Assembly: GCA_029552745.1 (NCBI GenBank) | Contig: JAKPDK010000070.1 | Span: 468,813-532,812, forward strand | Source: Candidatus Hydrogenedentota bacterium | GTDB taxonomy: Bacteria; Hydrogenedentota; Hydrogenedentia; Hydrogenedentales; SLHB01 | Length of the DNA: 64,000 nt | Direction of reading: 5' to 3' | Shown here: piece by piece, positions 11,810 through 18,295 of the stretch | How the letters are laid out: the number at the start of each line of letters is the position of its first letter | Position numbering within the stretch: position 1 is the stretch's first letter | The notes under the pieces: model-generated | The model's database searches: none | The model's input: only the letters and a program-made list of their open reading frames with translations | Told to the model about the DNA's origin: nothing | Program-made: the position numbers and the translations under genes

Positions 11810-12799
11810 CTAGACCATACCCGTAAACATGACACGACGAATGATTTTTTGAGATTCCACAGCGTCTAAAGTACGCTGGGCTTTTCTCAGCTCCGTGGGA
11901 TCAAGACGCTCGATTTTCTTCCAGAAAATCGAGAGATTTCCCACCGCGATTTGGCATGCTTGAGAAGGATCGATACGTTCGGGAAGCATCTCCAACACTA
12001 TGAATCCCTTGTACTTGGCCATTTTGAGGTAGAACAACGCTTCCATGACTTCCCACATGTGCACACTGCCGGGAACCATCATGTCGTCCCAGAACCTGTA
12101 GCTATCCGCCATGTACACTTGAAATAGCTTGTTGGAACGAGTCAGAAAAGCAATAGACTCTGCTGGGTTTTCTCCGGCCATCATGGCATGACCAAAATGT
12201 AGAGAAACACCGACGTTTTTCATGGCAATTTCTTGACACAGAGAGAGGCTTTTCCCCACAGAAGCGACCGTCAGAAACTTCCTCGGGTCACGAGGTTTGT
12301 AAGCAATTGAAATATTAATATCAGGAGACGCATATTTGGCGATGGTCTTGATTGAAGAAATAACGGTATTCCAGTGTGCCGTGTAATCAATGTGAAACGG
12401 GTAATCAAAACCATCGCTATAGAGTCTCAAAGTGACATCTGTGGCGCCGAGCTGACGCGCAATGTCAACCGCTTTACGTCCCTCATCTATCGCCGCATTT
12501 CGAGTTTTCGGATGTTGATGACCAAAGGCTCCCAAGGCAAATCGCCGGTCATTCGCCAGGTCGGCCGATACCCCAGAGCATAATAAACCTTGATCTTTTA
12601 GGATTCTTCGTAGTTCCTTTGTGGGGAAATCACTTGTGATGTCGTTTTGAGACACTTCTACCGCCTTGATAGTCTTCAGTTTAGCAATGGCGGCCAATTT
12701 TTCGGTAAGTTTCAACTCTTCCCGATATCCGCTAGGACAATATCTATCTGGGGTTGTGCCGAACACATTCAGGGAAACCGAGAATCGTAATGACATCAT
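11810..12799 (-). CDS. Sugar phosphate isomerase/epimerase-like TIM-barrel protein
   Basis: A 329-residue protein of the xylose-isomerase-like (AP endonuclease 2) superfamily. Expected metal-site features appear along the barrel: an early EVSQND strand end, AIDEGRKAVDIARQLGA, a VGVSLHFGHAMMAGENP segment and a late FIVLEMLPERIDP. Members isomerise or epimerise sugars or polyols using a divalent metal. The exact substrate cannot be told. The start is one of two adjacent ATGs after AGGAG. A clear sigma-70-type promoter lies about 150 bases upstream, and a putative terminated RNA lies beyond it, so the gene looks monocistronic. Confidence 0.8.
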   Translation of the reverse strand: MMSLRFSVSLNVFGTTPDRYCPSGYREELKLTEKLAAIAKLKTIKAVEVSQNDITSDFPTKELRRILKDQGLLCSGVSADLANDRRFALGAFGHQHPKTRNAAIDEGRKAVDIARQLGATDVTLRLYSDGFDYPFHIDYTAHWNTVISSIKTIAKYASPDINISIAYKPRDPRKFLTVASVGKSLSLCQEIAMKNVGVSLHFGHAMMAGENPAESIAFLTRSNKLFQVYMADSYRFWDDMMVPGSVHMWEVMEALFYLKMAKYKGFIVLEMLPERIDPSQACQIAVGNLSIFWKKIERLDPTELRKAQRTLDAVESQKIIRRVMFTGMV

Positions 12800-12952
12800 T
12801 TTCTCCTATGGTTTATATGTGTTTTACGGTCGTGCAATTTGTGCGTTGGTGCCCCTAAGTCTGACAAGATAGAGTGCAGTAGCGACTCACTTGATATCCC
12901 GTCTTTTTCTGTATAAGTCGGGAATGCACAACCAACATTCAGTCAACGACTT

Positions 12953-12981
12953 ATTGTAATCCGCAATTTAAAAAAAGTCAA
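12953..12981 (-). promoter_or_regulatory. Sigma-70-type promoter for the TIM-barrel gene
   Basis: On the minus strand the sequence reads TTGACT, a 17-base spacer, then TACAAT. It lies about 150 bases upstream of the start at 12799, giving a 5' leader of about 145 bases in which I see no recognised riboswitch. The upstream terminator at 13064-13115 would insulate this promoter from the candidate RNA. Confidence 0.6.
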
Positions 12982-13063
12982 GAGGTGCCAATATTTATAT
13001 AAAATAACATTTTAAGTATAAATAGTAACCCTGTGTCAATTTACATGCTTTTAGAGACGCGGC

Positions 13064-13115
13064 AAAAAAGGAGGCGAGTGCTAACAGCGGGGGAACTGTC
13101 ATTCACGCACTCGCC
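13064..13115 (-). terminator. Rho-independent terminator of the candidate RNA
   Basis: A perfect 9-bp stem (13107-13115 with 13073-13081) with a 25-base loop that itself contains ACAG/CUGU, followed on the minus strand by TCC and six T residues. The T-run makes the minus strand the transcribed one. Confidence 0.6.
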
Positions 13116-13181
13116 GGTGGTAGGATTCAGCCATAACGGCTGGGCTACCGATTAAACCCGGGGGAGAGGTCCTCGGTAACC
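13064..13181 (-). ncRNA. Candidate structured noncoding RNA, family not recognised
   Basis: The minus strand here folds into three consecutive stem-loops. The first is CCGAGGA paired with UCCCCCGG. The second has GGUAG/CUACC enclosing CAGCC/GGCUG with a GUUAU loop. The third is a 9-bp GGCGAGUGC/GCACUCGCC stem with an internal ACAG/CUGU hairpin, followed by six U residues. No reading frame of useful length covers it. It is bounded by AT-rich DNA on both sides. I could not match it to tmRNA, 6S, SRP, RNase P or the common riboswitch classes by eye. It could be an independent small RNA or a long leader element that terminates before the TIM-barrel gene. Confidence 0.5.
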
Positions 13182-13291
13182 AATAAATTAAACTATTGTG
13201 CCAGACACTTTATTCCTAAACTGGAAACGTTTATATTAGTTTTCCTGATGAACTGGTTTGTTAAGGTCATTTAGAAAAGAGCAACCCAGGC

Positions 13292-14458
13292 GTGCTAAAT
13301 TATGCTATGTGTTTCATGATTTCTGCGAGTTTTTTTGTTTTTCCTATTTTTGTAGGAATCTCCTTTACATGTTTTCCAACTATTTCGGATTTGGCATCAG
13401 ACCAATCCTACAATAAAAACGGCCAAACGTGTTCCTGTCGATTTCAGGCTCCACCCTTTTTTGTGGCTGCATCGAGTTCAGCATTTGTGGAGCCTTCCCC
13501 AGGTTATACTACGTCTCAGTTGAAATCATTGCTGGCGCTGGCTCGTTCACCCAATCCAACTTCTCGTGCCCGTTCTCTAGAGGGTCTGAAGCATTTTGAT
13601 ACGGAAGATGCCAACCACACCATAGTCAAGGCTCTGATAGACCCCGAGACTGTAGTACGCGAAGCCGCATTCAACGCAATCCGAGAGTGGGATGGAGATC
13701 GGCTGTGTGGGAGCCTAATACAAGCCTATTCTACAAGTGGCGACGAAATACGACATGCTTATGACCAAGTGGTCCCTTTGTTTTCGATGAAACTGGCTAC
13801 CCCGTTTAAGCGTATTCTAGTTGACCCTTCTGAGAACAGCCAAAACCGGTGTATCGCTGCTCATTGCCTCGGGGTAATGCGTGTGCAGGATGCGGCCAGA
13901 GTCTTGGCGGATGCCGTGTGGCTCAATGATGATTATCTGGCAATCGAAGCGGCATGGGCCTTGGTTGTGGTGGCGAGTCCGGAGTCAGTATCCGATTTTG
14001 TCAAAATGACTTACCATTCCTTAAAGGAGGTACGTCGTGCAGCAATTGAAGGCTTGGGTAGGATATCTACTCCAACGTCACTGCGCGCTTTGGAGTCCAT
14101 TGCCTCAGATCGCCAGGTGAAAGATCGAGACATTCGACGGGAGGCCGTTTTATGGTTAGGCACGATCGGTGATAATCAGACCGTCGACACGCTTGTGTCA
14201 ATTTTGCGCAACGAACCTTTCTTGCGCCGTGCCGCTACTCAGGCACTCAGACGCTTGACGGGGCTACCTTTCGGAGATGCGCCCCGGGAATGGTACGAAT
14301 GGTATGCAGACTATAAGCAGTCAACCCGCACGCAGACATCATCTCCACCAACTCCGCCGCCTTTAGTTCCGCGGGGTGTAGTCCTTCCTGCAGTTCCACC
14401 TGGATTTGTGCCGGGGTCTCCTGCTCAGACAGAAGAGCAACAGAAAAAGAAACCCTAA
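13292..14458 (+). CDS. HEAT-repeat protein with N-terminal signal or anchor
   Basis: A 388-residue protein starting at GTG 13292; ATG 13307 is an alternative and neither has a good ribosome binding site. A hydrophobic stretch at residues 6-30 is a signal peptide or membrane anchor. From about residue 70 to 340 it is built of HEAT/armadillo helical pairs (for example SLEGLKHFDTEDANHTIVKA, AARVLADAVWLNDDYLAIEA and VKDRDIRREAVLWLGTIGDN), an interaction solenoid without catalytic residues. The tail is proline-rich (TPPPLVPRG and similar). It precedes the large WD40 kinase gene by 141 bases on the same strand, and the two may be functionally linked. Confidence 0.8.
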   Translation: MLNYAMCFMISASFFVFPIFVGISFTCFPTISDLASDQSYNKNGQTCSCRFQAPPFFVAASSSAFVEPSPGYTTSQLKSLLALARSPNPTSRARSLEGLKHFDTEDANHTIVKALIDPETVVREAAFNAIREWDGDRLCGSLIQAYSTSGDEIRHAYDQVVPLFSMKLATPFKRILVDPSENSQNRCIAAHCLGVMRVQDAARVLADAVWLNDDYLAIEAAWALVVVASPESVSDFVKMTYHSLKEVRRAAIEGLGRISTPTSLRALESIASDRQVKDRDIRREAVLWLGTIGDNQTVDTLVSILRNEPFLRRAATQALRRLTGLPFGDAPREWYEWYADYKQSTRTQTSSPPTPPPLVPRGVVLPAVPPGFVPGSPAQTEEQQKKKP

Positions 14459-14599: not shown

Positions 14600-17500
14600 A
14601 TGAATAATTCAGAAAAGATACATTCTCGCTCAAAGCACGCCCCGGGGGAGACATCGGCTTCCACGAAGGATGAAAGTGCTTCTTGGAGTCATGACCAAGA
14701 TAGTGTTTGGCAGATAGGTAATACTATCTTGGGGACTTATGTGGTAACCGATTTCTTGGGGCAGGGAGGGATGGGAAAGGTTTTCCGCGTGAAACACCTG
14801 GGCTGGAACATAGATATGGCAGTCAAGCTCCTTAAACCCAACCTTCTCACGAATCCTTTGGCGGTCGAATCGTTCCAGCAGGAATGTGAAACGTGGGTTA
14901 ATCTAGGTCTGCATCCTCATGTTGTGTCGTGTTATTACGTGCGCATGATCGATGGGACTCCAAAAGTTTTTGCAGAGTACGTTGATGGGGGGAGTCTTCG
15001 CCGATGGCTCACAGAAGGCAAACTATACGAAGGCGGCCAGAAGATGGCATTACGCCGGATCCTGACTATCGCTATTCAGACTGCTTGGGGGCTTCATCAT
15101 GCGCACCAAAATGGGCTAGTCCATCGGGATGTGAAGACGGGCAACATTTTGATTTCCCGTTCCTCTGGAGCAAAGGTGACAGATTTTGGCCTTGCCGGTG
15201 CCCGAATTTCTGCGGCGCATTTGGAAAATTCGGCACGAGAGTCTGGCTTGGTGAGTGCTGGTGGCATGACTCCCGCCTACTGTTCACCAGAACAGTTCCG
15301 TCGAGAAAAAGTGTCCTACAAGACAGATATTTGGAGTTGGGCACTCTCTGTATTAGAAATGTTTGTAGGTGGAGTAACCTGGAAACGCGGCCCCGAAGCG
15401 CCGTCCGTTATGTGTAGCCTGTACGAGAAAGGTCCCGTTTTTGCTTATTGTCCTCCCATGCCGGAGAGAGTCTATGATGTTTTGTTGAAGTGTTGTCAGG
15501 AAGATCCCGCTGCACGTCCAAAAGATATGCTCGAAGCGGTTGAGTCTCTCAAGGAAATCTACCATGAGCTCGTCGGGAAACCTTTCCCCCATCGTTCTCT
15601 TCGGCCGATTCGAATGAGGGCGGATAGTTCGAACAATCGGGCTGTTTCTTTGATAGACTTGGGTAAATGGGAGGACGCCGAAAAGGCATGGTGTGATGCC
15701 CTAAAGGCAGAGCCTAAACATACGGAGGCGACGTTCAATTTCGGCTTGGTGAAGTGGAGGTCAGGGCGACTCCATGACGAAGGTTTACTTCAAGAGTTAC
15801 AGGAAGTCCGTCGTCTACATCCATCGGAAACACTTCCATTTGTTCTTTACAACCAAGTCCTGTTGGAACGCGGCGATTATGAAGAAGTTCTCAAGAATGT
15901 AAATCGCCTTGAGACGTCAGGACAATATTCTGAAAACTGGCTATCCATAAAACAGCAAGCAATTGAGCTTTTGCCCTATACTCGAAAGTTAGTGCGTACC
16001 TTTTGTGCACACAAGGATGCGATCACTTCGGTTGCCGTAACAAAGGCAGGACGCCTTATCATCTCTGGTAGCCATGACAACACGGTGATCGTCTGGGATA
16101 CGCAGTCCGGTACTCCTTGCTATTTTTTAACGGGACATCAAGGCTCAGTGACCCGAGTCGGGTTGAGTTTGAATGAAAAGATCGCTGTCTCTTGCAGTAG
16201 TGACAGAACTGTTCGCACGTGGGAATTGGATTCGGGGGAATGTATTCGAGTTTTGAAGAAACACAATGCCTGCGTGGTCGGTGTACATGTTTTTGATGAT
16301 TCGGGTTCCGTCCTTTCTTGTGGTCAAGATGGCCTAATTGTTCACCAGAGTCTGGAAGACGGAAGCATAGAAAGTTTGTCACTTGAGATCCGTTCGAGTG
16401 TTGCGGCTTCTTCTTTTTGTGCAAAGGGAAAACTTCTTTTCTTGGGGCATGTTGATGGGCAAATTACAGTATGGTCTTACCCCGAGGGAGTAAGAAAGGC
16501 AGCATGGAAGGCACATGACGCCCCGATTCGAACCATCACAGCAGATGTTCATTCAAATGCTTTATTAAGCGCGTCAGACGACGGCAAGATAAAGGTATGG
16601 GATAAACGTACCTTTGCTTGTAGGCACATTATTGATGCGCACTTGGAGGGAGTTCTTGATCTCCATTGTTTAGCGAAATCCCCTTTTGCCGTTTCTTCAG
16701 GCAAAGATGGCGCTGTCCGGCTATGGTGTCTCCGAAATCGGAGATGTCTCTATACATATCGGGGGCATAAAGGGGCAGTGCGTTGTGTGACGTTCATGGC
16801 AGATGCGAGATATCTAGTTTCAGGGGGAGAAGACGGTTTAATAAACCTCTGGAGTGTGGGGAGCATAATTCCAAAATACCGAGCGCCTTTTGTTTTGTGT
16901 CGAGCAATTGAGAGCGAAACAGCAGCGAAAGATGAAATGACGTTTGTTCAAATACTGAGTAAGGCAAAGGGCTGTTTTGATAAAGCCGATTGGAATGGTG
17001 CAGCCGATGCGCTTCGAACTGCCCGCGAATTGCCCGGTTTCCGTCGTAATGCTGGAGCTTTGGCGCTGTGGACGGCTTTATATACCAAATTGCCTTGCGG
17101 TGAATTCACCGGTTCATGGCGTGTGGGAAAGACCTGTGCGCACAAGGGAGCAGCAACCTGTTTGGCGGTAAGTCCAGAAGGCACTATACTTTTTTCCGCT
17201 GGGGAAGATGGATGCATTGTGGGCTGGGATCCAGAAAACTGTACACGAAAAATTGCATTTGAGGGACATACCAAACCTGTTAAGGCGCTCGATGTGGACC
17301 CGCTTAATCGTTTTCTGCTATCTGCCGCAGAAGACAACGTCGTAATGGCTTGGGACATTCGAAACGGGAAAGCCCTCAAGTTTTTTGAGCCACCGGCAGG
17401 CAACATTGATGCAGTTGCTATAAGTCCGAACGGTCAGTTCATCGTCGGTGGTGGGTGGGCGTTAACGCTGTGGCACGTTGACACGGGTCGATGCTTACTG

Positions 17501-18295
17501 GCCGGCGAAGTAGACTCAGGTTCCATTCTTTCTTTAGCGTGGACTCCGGATTCCCGCCACGTGATTACGGCGACATCTGAAGAACTTGTGCAGATCTGGG
17601 ATATGTCGCAACTGAAATGTGTTCACGTTCTGCAAACTGGCACGGGGTGTGTTGCATCTATCAAAGTGAGCGCTGACGGGAAATTCCTGATGACGGGCAA
17701 TCGGCCTCTGTGGGGGCACCAGGGACGGTTGATGCTATGGGACATGCAAGACCTCAAACCTATTTTCTCTGAAGAGGCACATCGAGGTGGCATAAACACG
17801 GTCTCACTGTCTGTCAATGCAAGAATTGGTTTGACAGGTGGACAAGACAATACCGTGCGACTTTGGGACTTCCAAGATCGCGCCTGTTTGCAAGTTTTGT
17901 CTGAGACCACTCCGAACGTTCGGGCAGTTGTGTTGAGTCCGGAATGTCGGTTTGCCGCAGCAGCGGACGAACACGGAAATATCGAGATTTGGTACTTGGA
18001 TTGGTCACTCCTGCCACGACCTTCAAAGGATTGGGATGATGGAGCGTTACCATACATCCACGCGTTTTTATCAAATCGCCGGGCAAGCGAAAAAGGAATC
18101 TCCGACGGTAAGAATGTTGGGTTTGAGGACGTGCGTCGGTTTTTCCATTTTAAGGGAAAGCCTTTTTGGACCGAGACAGACGTAGATCACCTCCTCTTTA
18201 TACTAGGCTGTGCGGGCTATGGCTGGTTGTCCCGTGAAAGAGTCTTAAAAGCTTTAGCCTATGAATCTTCCAAGAAGGCTTTCGGGTGGTTCTAG
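14600..18295 (+). CDS. Serine/threonine protein kinase fused to TPR and two WD40 propellers
   Basis: A 1231-residue cytoplasmic protein with no membrane segment. The Hanks-type kinase domain (about 45-320) has glycine loop GQGGMGKVF, VKLL lysine, catalytic VHRDVKTGN near 173 and DFG near 195, so it should be active. A TPR-like stretch follows (about 345-450). Seven WD40 repeats (about 465-757) end in VWD, TWE, VWD or LWS. A helical TPR-like linker (about 760-840) separates them from seven more repeats (about 843-1135) and a 95-residue C-terminal module. Such kinases probably read out partner binding through the propellers. Targets are unknown. The HEAT-repeat gene upstream is a candidate partner. 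Confidence 0.92.
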   Translation: MNNSEKIHSRSKHAPGETSASTKDESASWSHDQDSVWQIGNTILGTYVVTDFLGQGGMGKVFRVKHLGWNIDMAVKLLKPNLLTNPLAVESFQQECETWVNLGLHPHVVSCYYVRMIDGTPKVFAEYVDGGSLRRWLTEGKLYEGGQKMALRRILTIAIQTAWGLHHAHQNGLVHRDVKTGNILISRSSGAKVTDFGLAGARISAAHLENSARESGLVSAGGMTPAYCSPEQFRREKVSYKTDIWSWALSVLEMFVGGVTWKRGPEAPSVMCSLYEKGPVFAYCPPMPERVYDVLLKCCQEDPAARPKDMLEAVESLKEIYHELVGKPFPHRSLRPIRMRADSSNNRAVSLIDLGKWEDAEKAWCDALKAEPKHTEATFNFGLVKWRSGRLHDEGLLQELQEVRRLHPSETLPFVLYNQVLLERGDYEEVLKNVNRLETSGQYSENWLSIKQQAIELLPYTRKLVRTFCAHKDAITSVAVTKAGRLIISGSHDNTVIVWDTQSGTPCYFLTGHQGSVTRVGLSLNEKIAVSCSSDRTVRTWELDSGECIRVLKKHNACVVGVHVFDDSGSVLSCGQDGLIVHQSLEDGSIESLSLEIRSSVAASSFCAKGKLLFLGHVDGQITVWSYPEGVRKAAWKAHDAPIRTITADVHSNALLSASDDGKIKVWDKRTFACRHIIDAHLEGVLDLHCLAKSPFAVSSGKDGAVRLWCLRNRRCLYTYRGHKGAVRCVTFMADARYLVSGGEDGLINLWSVGSIIPKYRAPFVLCRAIESETAAKDEMTFVQILSKAKGCFDKADWNGAADALRTARELPGFRRNAGALALWTALYTKLPCGEFTGSWRVGKTCAHKGAATCLAVSPEGTILFSAGEDGCIVGWDPENCTRKIAFEGHTKPVKALDVDPLNRFLLSAAEDNVVMAWDIRNGKALKFFEPPAGNIDAVAISPNGQFIVGGGWALTLWHVDTGRCLLAGEVDSGSILSLAWTPDSRHVITATSEELVQIWDMSQLKCVHVLQTGTGCVASIKVSADGKFLMTGNRPLWGHQGRLMLWDMQDLKPIFSEEAHRGGINTVSLSVNARIGLTGGQDNTVRLWDFQDRACLQVLSETTPNVRAVVLSPECRFAAAADEHGNIEIWYLDWSLLPRPSKDWDDGALPYIHAFLSNRRASEKGISDGKNVGFEDVRRFFHFKGKPFWTETDVDHLLFILGCAGYGWLSRERVLKALAYESSKKAFGWF

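Follow-up and report, generated by a model that had tools for sequence, protein, structure and literature searches.

The stretch of DNA analysed here (the window, 64,000 nucleotides of a Candidatus Hydrogenedentota genome) contains an intergenic gap of 492 bases (12800–13291), flanked by a divergent HEAT-repeat gene and the gene of an AP_endonuc_2 protein with a xylose isomerase-like TIM barrel. The minus strand of this gap carries a predicted small RNA, preceded by a promoter and closed by an intrinsic terminator (Table 1). A first-pass annotation, made from the letters of the window, had described three tandem stem-loops followed by six U residues, and these are found where it placed them: a 146-base segment folds at -50.9 kcal/mol, compared with -35.4 kcal/mol (sd 3.7) for dinucleotide shuffles (z -4.17), and none of 200 shuffles folds as well. 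Two features had not been described there, namely the RNA's own upstream promoter and a repeated C-rich motif.

Table 1. Features of the RNA locus and its immediate neighbours, in window coordinates.
Feature	Position	Strand	Details and basis
AP_endonuc_2 protein (xylose isomerase-like TIM barrel)	11810–12799	-	Pfam PF01261, 4.1e-18; conserved downstream neighbour
Sigma-70 promoter of the TIM-barrel gene	12953–12981	-	TTGACT 12981–12976, N17, TACAAT 12958–12953
Predicted small RNA, ~120 nt	13064–13184	-	5' end inferred from the promoter
U6 tract, intrinsic terminator	13064–13069	-	sequence reading
SL3, terminator hairpin	13073–13115	-	invariant lower stem GGCGAGUGC/GCACUCGCC; fold and alignment
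SL3 loop, AGUUCCCCCGCU	13095–13089 (UUCCCCC)	-	
C-rich linker, single-stranded	13116–13127	-	AAUCCUACCACC in the window copy, GUUCCCACCACC in most relatives
SL2, short stem-loop	13128–13142	-	CAGUCAGCAAUGACUG in most relatives; fold and alignment
SL1, long stem of free sequence	13144–13180	-	fixed C-rich loop UCUCCCCC; C-run 13164–13160; predicted fold
-10 element of the RNA promoter, GTT	13191–13193	-	18 nt after GGAAT
-35 element of the RNA promoter (ECF-type), GGAATA	13211–13216	-	sequence reading and motif in relatives
HEAT-repeat protein, divergent upstream neighbour	13292–14458	+	Pfam PF13646, 1.7e-28

Compensatory changes, which the first-pass annotation had proposed as a check, are seen among the homologues in all three stems. 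In an alignment of 30 copies, standard pairs fill 95.4% of the pair cells (shuffles, 89.3%). Cells with changes on both sides number 66, where shuffles give 19.2 and none of 500 reaches that count; when the partners are slid along the alignment, pairing falls to 25–42%. Double changes occur in all five inner pairs of SL1, two of the six pairs of SL2 and three of the six upper pairs of SL3. Nine of the ten pairs in the lower stem of SL3 are the same in all 30 copies and the tenth shows double changes; a T-rich tract stands at the terminator in every aligned copy (30/30). Reading of the sequence of one divergent copy, L154, finds a U-A pair of the SL3 stem replaced by C-G. The alignment of SL1 is unreliable, and its arms were tested alignment-free, joined by a fixed linker: the mean energy is -18.3 kcal/mol for own arms and -8.2 kcal/mol for arms swapped between genomes, and none of 10,000 permutations matches the pairing of the own arms. 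The own 3' arm is unbeaten by any foreign arm in 23 of the 30 copies, a foreign arm pairing better in the other seven. With a mean identity of 32% among the 5' arms, the arms of SL1 are almost random in sequence, yet they pair with their own partners.

Conservation is instead concentrated in the C-rich loops and linker, in SL2 and in the SL3 stem. The fixed C-rich motifs are (U/C)UCCCCC in SL1, GUUCCCACCACC between SL2 and SL3, and AGUUCCCCCGCU in SL3, and all three are predicted to be mostly unpaired: the mean unpaired probability of the SL1 motif is mostly high, that of the linker motif varies (0.43–1.0), and that of the whole SL3 motif, closing bases included, is about 0.67. The invariance of the SL3 stem exceeds what a terminator needs, which suggests a further function, perhaps protein binding.

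Searches at several depths place the RNA within a single phylum. Of 60 relatives examined by DNA search, 32 carry it, the source genome included, and an exact SL3 pattern matched 31 contigs among 84,980 species genomes, 29 of them labelled Hydrogenedentota or Hydrogenedentes and two 'uncultured bacterium'. With a shorter pattern, 36 of the 68 genomes of the phylum were matched and the reversed control matched none; one of these matches, in G044, was discarded as coding-like sequence. A covariance model, R1, built from the 30 aligned copies, matches 38 of the 68 genomes, one of which (G056, 27.5 bits, with neither promoter nor terminator) was discarded as likely false, leaving 37 genomes with 40 copies of the RNA; two further genomes were recognised by position, G010 with a copy cut by the contig end and G061 with a divergent copy. 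Applied with stricter filters to 291 relatives, at least 223 of which lie outside the phylum, R1 matches 37, all inside the order. Neither the SL3 pattern in the 84,980 species genomes nor R1 in the 291 relatives found a relative of the RNA outside the phylum.

Inside the phylum, no copy was seen in family f6 by covariance model or by position, and family f10 has the RNA only in genus g44, in divergent form. The two f10 copies, L154 (G062) and L166 (G061), keep the same type of promoter in the same place, have altered C-rich motifs and lack a clear SL2; they may represent the minimal functional core of the RNA. Second and third copies occur in G030 and G007 (L150, L151 and L152) in other gene contexts, and no copy was found on a viral contig.

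The first-pass annotation could assign the RNA to no known class, and Rfam 15 agrees. No covariance model matches the RNA locus of the window at its gathering score, a lenient search (E up to 10) returned only irrelevant matches there, and a search of 12 related loci gave no match at the RNA. Identity with 6S RNA, which is likewise conserved, independent and non-coding but has a different fold, is rejected: RF00013 has no match at the locus, a separate 6S RNA scores above the cut-off elsewhere in the source genome (G000:C23:46170-46351), and 45 of the 68 genomes of the phylum have RF00013 matches, 39 of them over the cut-off. We rate the RNA as a new Hydrogenedentota family whose mode of action would be of a known kind. 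No report of a small RNA from Hydrogenedentota was found in the literature searched, in which two papers on the phylum were text-searched for small-RNA terms and contain none.

Upstream of the RNA, 33 of 39 copies have the motif GGAAT-N18/19-GTT. It occurs in just 8 of 9,094 control windows and in none of the 39 on the reverse strand, the fortieth copy having been set aside with a contig that begins too close; two of the six copies without the strict motif fit a looser form. This layout is the same as that of the SigH consensus of C. glutamicum, GGAAT-N18-19-GTT, as given in PMC10012870. The promoter can be classed as SigH/SigR-type. In five genomes Sigma70_r2 gave 108 matches, of which 87 were examined, the 21 left out being mostly very long frames, together with a few weak matches. 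The source genome has among them a SigH-like ECF factor (G000:C106:354908-355114) whose best NCBIfam model is TIGR02947 SigH_actino, at 174.5 bits below the cut-off of 251.55, and whose best match among solved structures in the PDB is M. tuberculosis SigH (6.7e-42); relatives 64–79% identical are present in all four of the other genomes. We infer that this factor drives the RNA promoter. Neither the SigH-like gene nor its relatives in the five genomes have a strict site upstream, which gives no sign of autoregulation. Strict sites precede two of the 87 sigma genes, for which we estimate about one by chance from the control-window rate; one of the two lies before a SigH-like ECF gene of G037 (L348), which is suggestive only. 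Across the source genome the promoter pattern has 19 matches and its reverse 15, and no regulon is visible. A promising lead, a site 76 nt ahead of a DJ-1 family gene, failed when the site proved to be present in only one of the 30 loci examined (from 56 matches in 54 genomes).

The genes around the RNA follow a conserved order, HEAT (divergent), RNA, TIM, HflX and TPR. The TIM-barrel gene lies downstream on the same strand of 31 of the 40 copies; in the other nine, some near contig ends and three being the additional copies of G030 and G007, no TIM gene was detected downstream. The first-pass annotation's sigma-70 promoter beyond the terminator proved real: all 31 loci with the gene have a TTGA-type promoter between RNA terminator and TIM start codon, while the reverse strand has one in 2 of 31. 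At loci with the RNA the -10 element lies 136–204 nt from the start codon, a distance that is shorter in family f6; genomes in which no RNA was seen keep the promoter as well. The TIM-barrel gene is unusually conserved, at about 58–77% identity in most full-length matches across the phylum, and combines a near-perfect sigma-70 promoter with a long leader (12799–12981 on the minus strand of the window; L118–L183). A second structured RNA in this leader was considered and is unsupported (mean fold z -0.17). Two genes from the RNA, the plus strand of the window encodes a large serine/threonine protein kinase with WD40 propellers (14600–18295), a gene also found near the RNA in G005 and G013, and in one genome, G038, a fluoride riboswitch (RF01734) lies about 1.3 kb from the RNA (L062 165–224, minus strand).

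The structure, the promoter motif, the terminator and the separate promoter of the neighbour are all established by comparing sequences. Among characterised small RNAs, the nearest tested parallel is sX13 of Xanthomonas. According to PMC3771888, it is an Hfq-independent RNA of 115 nt with three stem-loops whose loops carry 4C, 4C and 5C, and it represses mRNAs that have GGGG motifs near their start. The RNA described here shares with sX13, as characterised there, its length (~120 against 115 nt), three stable stem-loops, runs of four to five C in loops and its place as a single intergenic gene. It thus has the features that mark the sX13 type (about 115 nt, three stable stem-loops, C-rich unpaired motifs), although one motif lies in the linker, so that its C-rich sites are in SL1, linker and SL3 rather than, as in that account of sX13, in all three loops. 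It also differs in its ECF-type promoter and in that its targets are postulated, and it comes from another phylum, the comparison being one of architecture. The likeness may extend to action without Hfq: PF17209 finds no Hfq in any of the 68 Hydrogenedentota genomes (the control finds Hfq in 5 of 14 known genomes), and therefore any action of the RNA would be Hfq-free.

Other C-rich small RNAs differ in build. LhrC of Listeria has a C-rich unpaired motif aimed at ribosome-binding sites, and HPnc5490 of Helicobacter pylori, that is RepG, has a single C/U-rich terminator loop, the C-rich loop pairing with a G-rich mRNA leader. LhrC, RNAIII and the UCCC-motif RNAs differ from the Hydrogenedentota RNA in architecture, length and phylum, and RepG differs from it in that ours has two C-rich loops and a C-rich linker and comes from an unrelated organism. 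PMC3771888 names HPnc5490 and describes RNAIII and the UCCC-motif RNAs of Staphylococcus as having C-rich unpaired motifs aimed at ribosome-binding sites, a likeness to the proposed action of our RNA that the Firmicutes C-rich-loop RNAs have in common. As for control, PMC2628432 describes the small RNA VrrA as dependent on an ECF (membrane-stress) sigma factor and as having no stringent need for Hfq. The Hydrogenedentota RNA would share ECF-type control with this Sigma-E-dependent RNA; its promoter is of the SigH/SigR type, GGAAT-N18/19-GTT, and Hfq was not found in its phylum.

By analogy with sX13, we give a little better than an even chance to the reading that the RNA, some 120 nt long and independently transcribed, is stress-induced and Hfq-independent and acts in trans as an antisense RNA blocking G-rich ribosome-binding sites. 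An alternative sigma factor (ECF, SigH/SigR-type) would switch the RNA on under stress. Without help from Hfq, the RNA would then act in trans, its C-rich linker and the two exposed C-rich loops pairing with G-rich stretches at ribosome-binding sites and blocking translation, as with sX13. Stress induction, trans action and targets are parts of the model that we infer from the analogy. Two tests for targets were negative. Complementarity between the RNA and the leader of the TIM gene does not exceed that of shuffles (mean z -0.16, 31 loci), and an exact 12-mer antisense to the linker showed no clear excess outside the RNA gene itself in the 68 genomes, where 49 have a match, many of these at the RNA gene and the others about as frequent as matches of the reversed-pattern control. 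It also counts against loop pairing that it leaves the invariant lower stem of SL3 unexplained. Further points against the model are the lack of a visible regulon, the failed DJ-1 lead, the absence of a strict site before the SigH-like gene and its relatives, the six copies without the strict promoter and the constant placing of the RNA before the TIM gene.

That stem and much of SL2, invariant in sequence though loop pairing does not need them, would fit a protein-binding RNA, in which the repeated (G)UUCCC(C/A)CC sites would form a multi-site decoy titrating an RNA-binding protein. Such a decoy is also consistent with the similar motifs exposed at three places and with the failure of both target tests. 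No candidate protein has emerged, however, and the divergent f10 copies change the motifs (UUCUCUCCC and UUCCCC in L154; also L166), so that we consider a decoy rather unlikely. It would work much as CsrB/RsmZ do, except that its site is C-rich; that the motif differs from the GGA site of CsrA also counts against it.

The chief reason to consider a local role is that the RNA keeps its place ahead of the TIM gene, and such a role remains conceivable. An independent small RNA whose main target is a neighbour, whether TIM, HflX or HEAT, would explain the conserved neighbourhood, but the lack of excess complementarity to the TIM leader and the existence of copies away from these genes make this distinctly unlikely. 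Alternatively, the RNA could be a cis-acting leader or attenuator of the TIM-barrel gene that senses something, with SL3 terminating before the gene, and its place upstream of that gene on the same strand, kept even in the divergent L154 and L166, would fit. We regard this as very unlikely: the sigma-70 promoter follows the terminator at every locus with a TIM gene and persists where no RNA was seen, and the nine copies with no TIM gene detected, second and third copies among them, count against it even with some near contig ends. As far as sequence evidence goes, then, the RNA does not belong to the TIM transcript as riboswitch, attenuator or leader, and because each has its own promoter, RNA and TIM gene look like separate units. 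Between the two possibilities that the first-pass annotation had left side by side, an independent unit or a terminated leader, the first is favoured and the second is not, and we favour an independent small RNA gene. A leader peptide or tiny gene read from the AUG in SL2 is scarcely credible, since the AUG (34 of 40 copies) and the MTGSHHRRV-like first codons of most copies follow from conservation of the RNA, loop spacers of 7, 8, 9 and 10 break the frame, the predicted lengths run from 11 to at least 50 residues and the AUG motif used fails to match six of the 40 copies; with frame and stop not conserved, this small open reading frame is rejected and the earlier statement that the RNA contains no reading frame holds.

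Returning to the independent, trans-acting antisense RNA, a bolder form of the proposal can be put forward at the level of the phylum, namely a SigH/SigR stress RNA that works without Hfq, silences many mRNAs with G-rich ribosome-binding sites through three redundant C-rich sites and uses the SL3 stem to dock a chaperone that replaces Hfq. We consider this tentative and, taken as a whole, somewhat unlikely; the stress in question, if it is true, would be thiol-oxidative or envelope stress.

With this RNA, Hydrogenedentota would gain its first described small regulatory RNA, as far as the literature searched shows. Its very strongly conserved loops, set against an SL1 stem that varies freely, make it well suited to target finding, and, Hfq being apparently absent from the whole phylum, it could be used to test how small RNAs act in trans when Hfq is missing. 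Shared by distant phyla, this C-rich-loop design would point to convergent evolution of RNAs directed at ribosome-binding sites.
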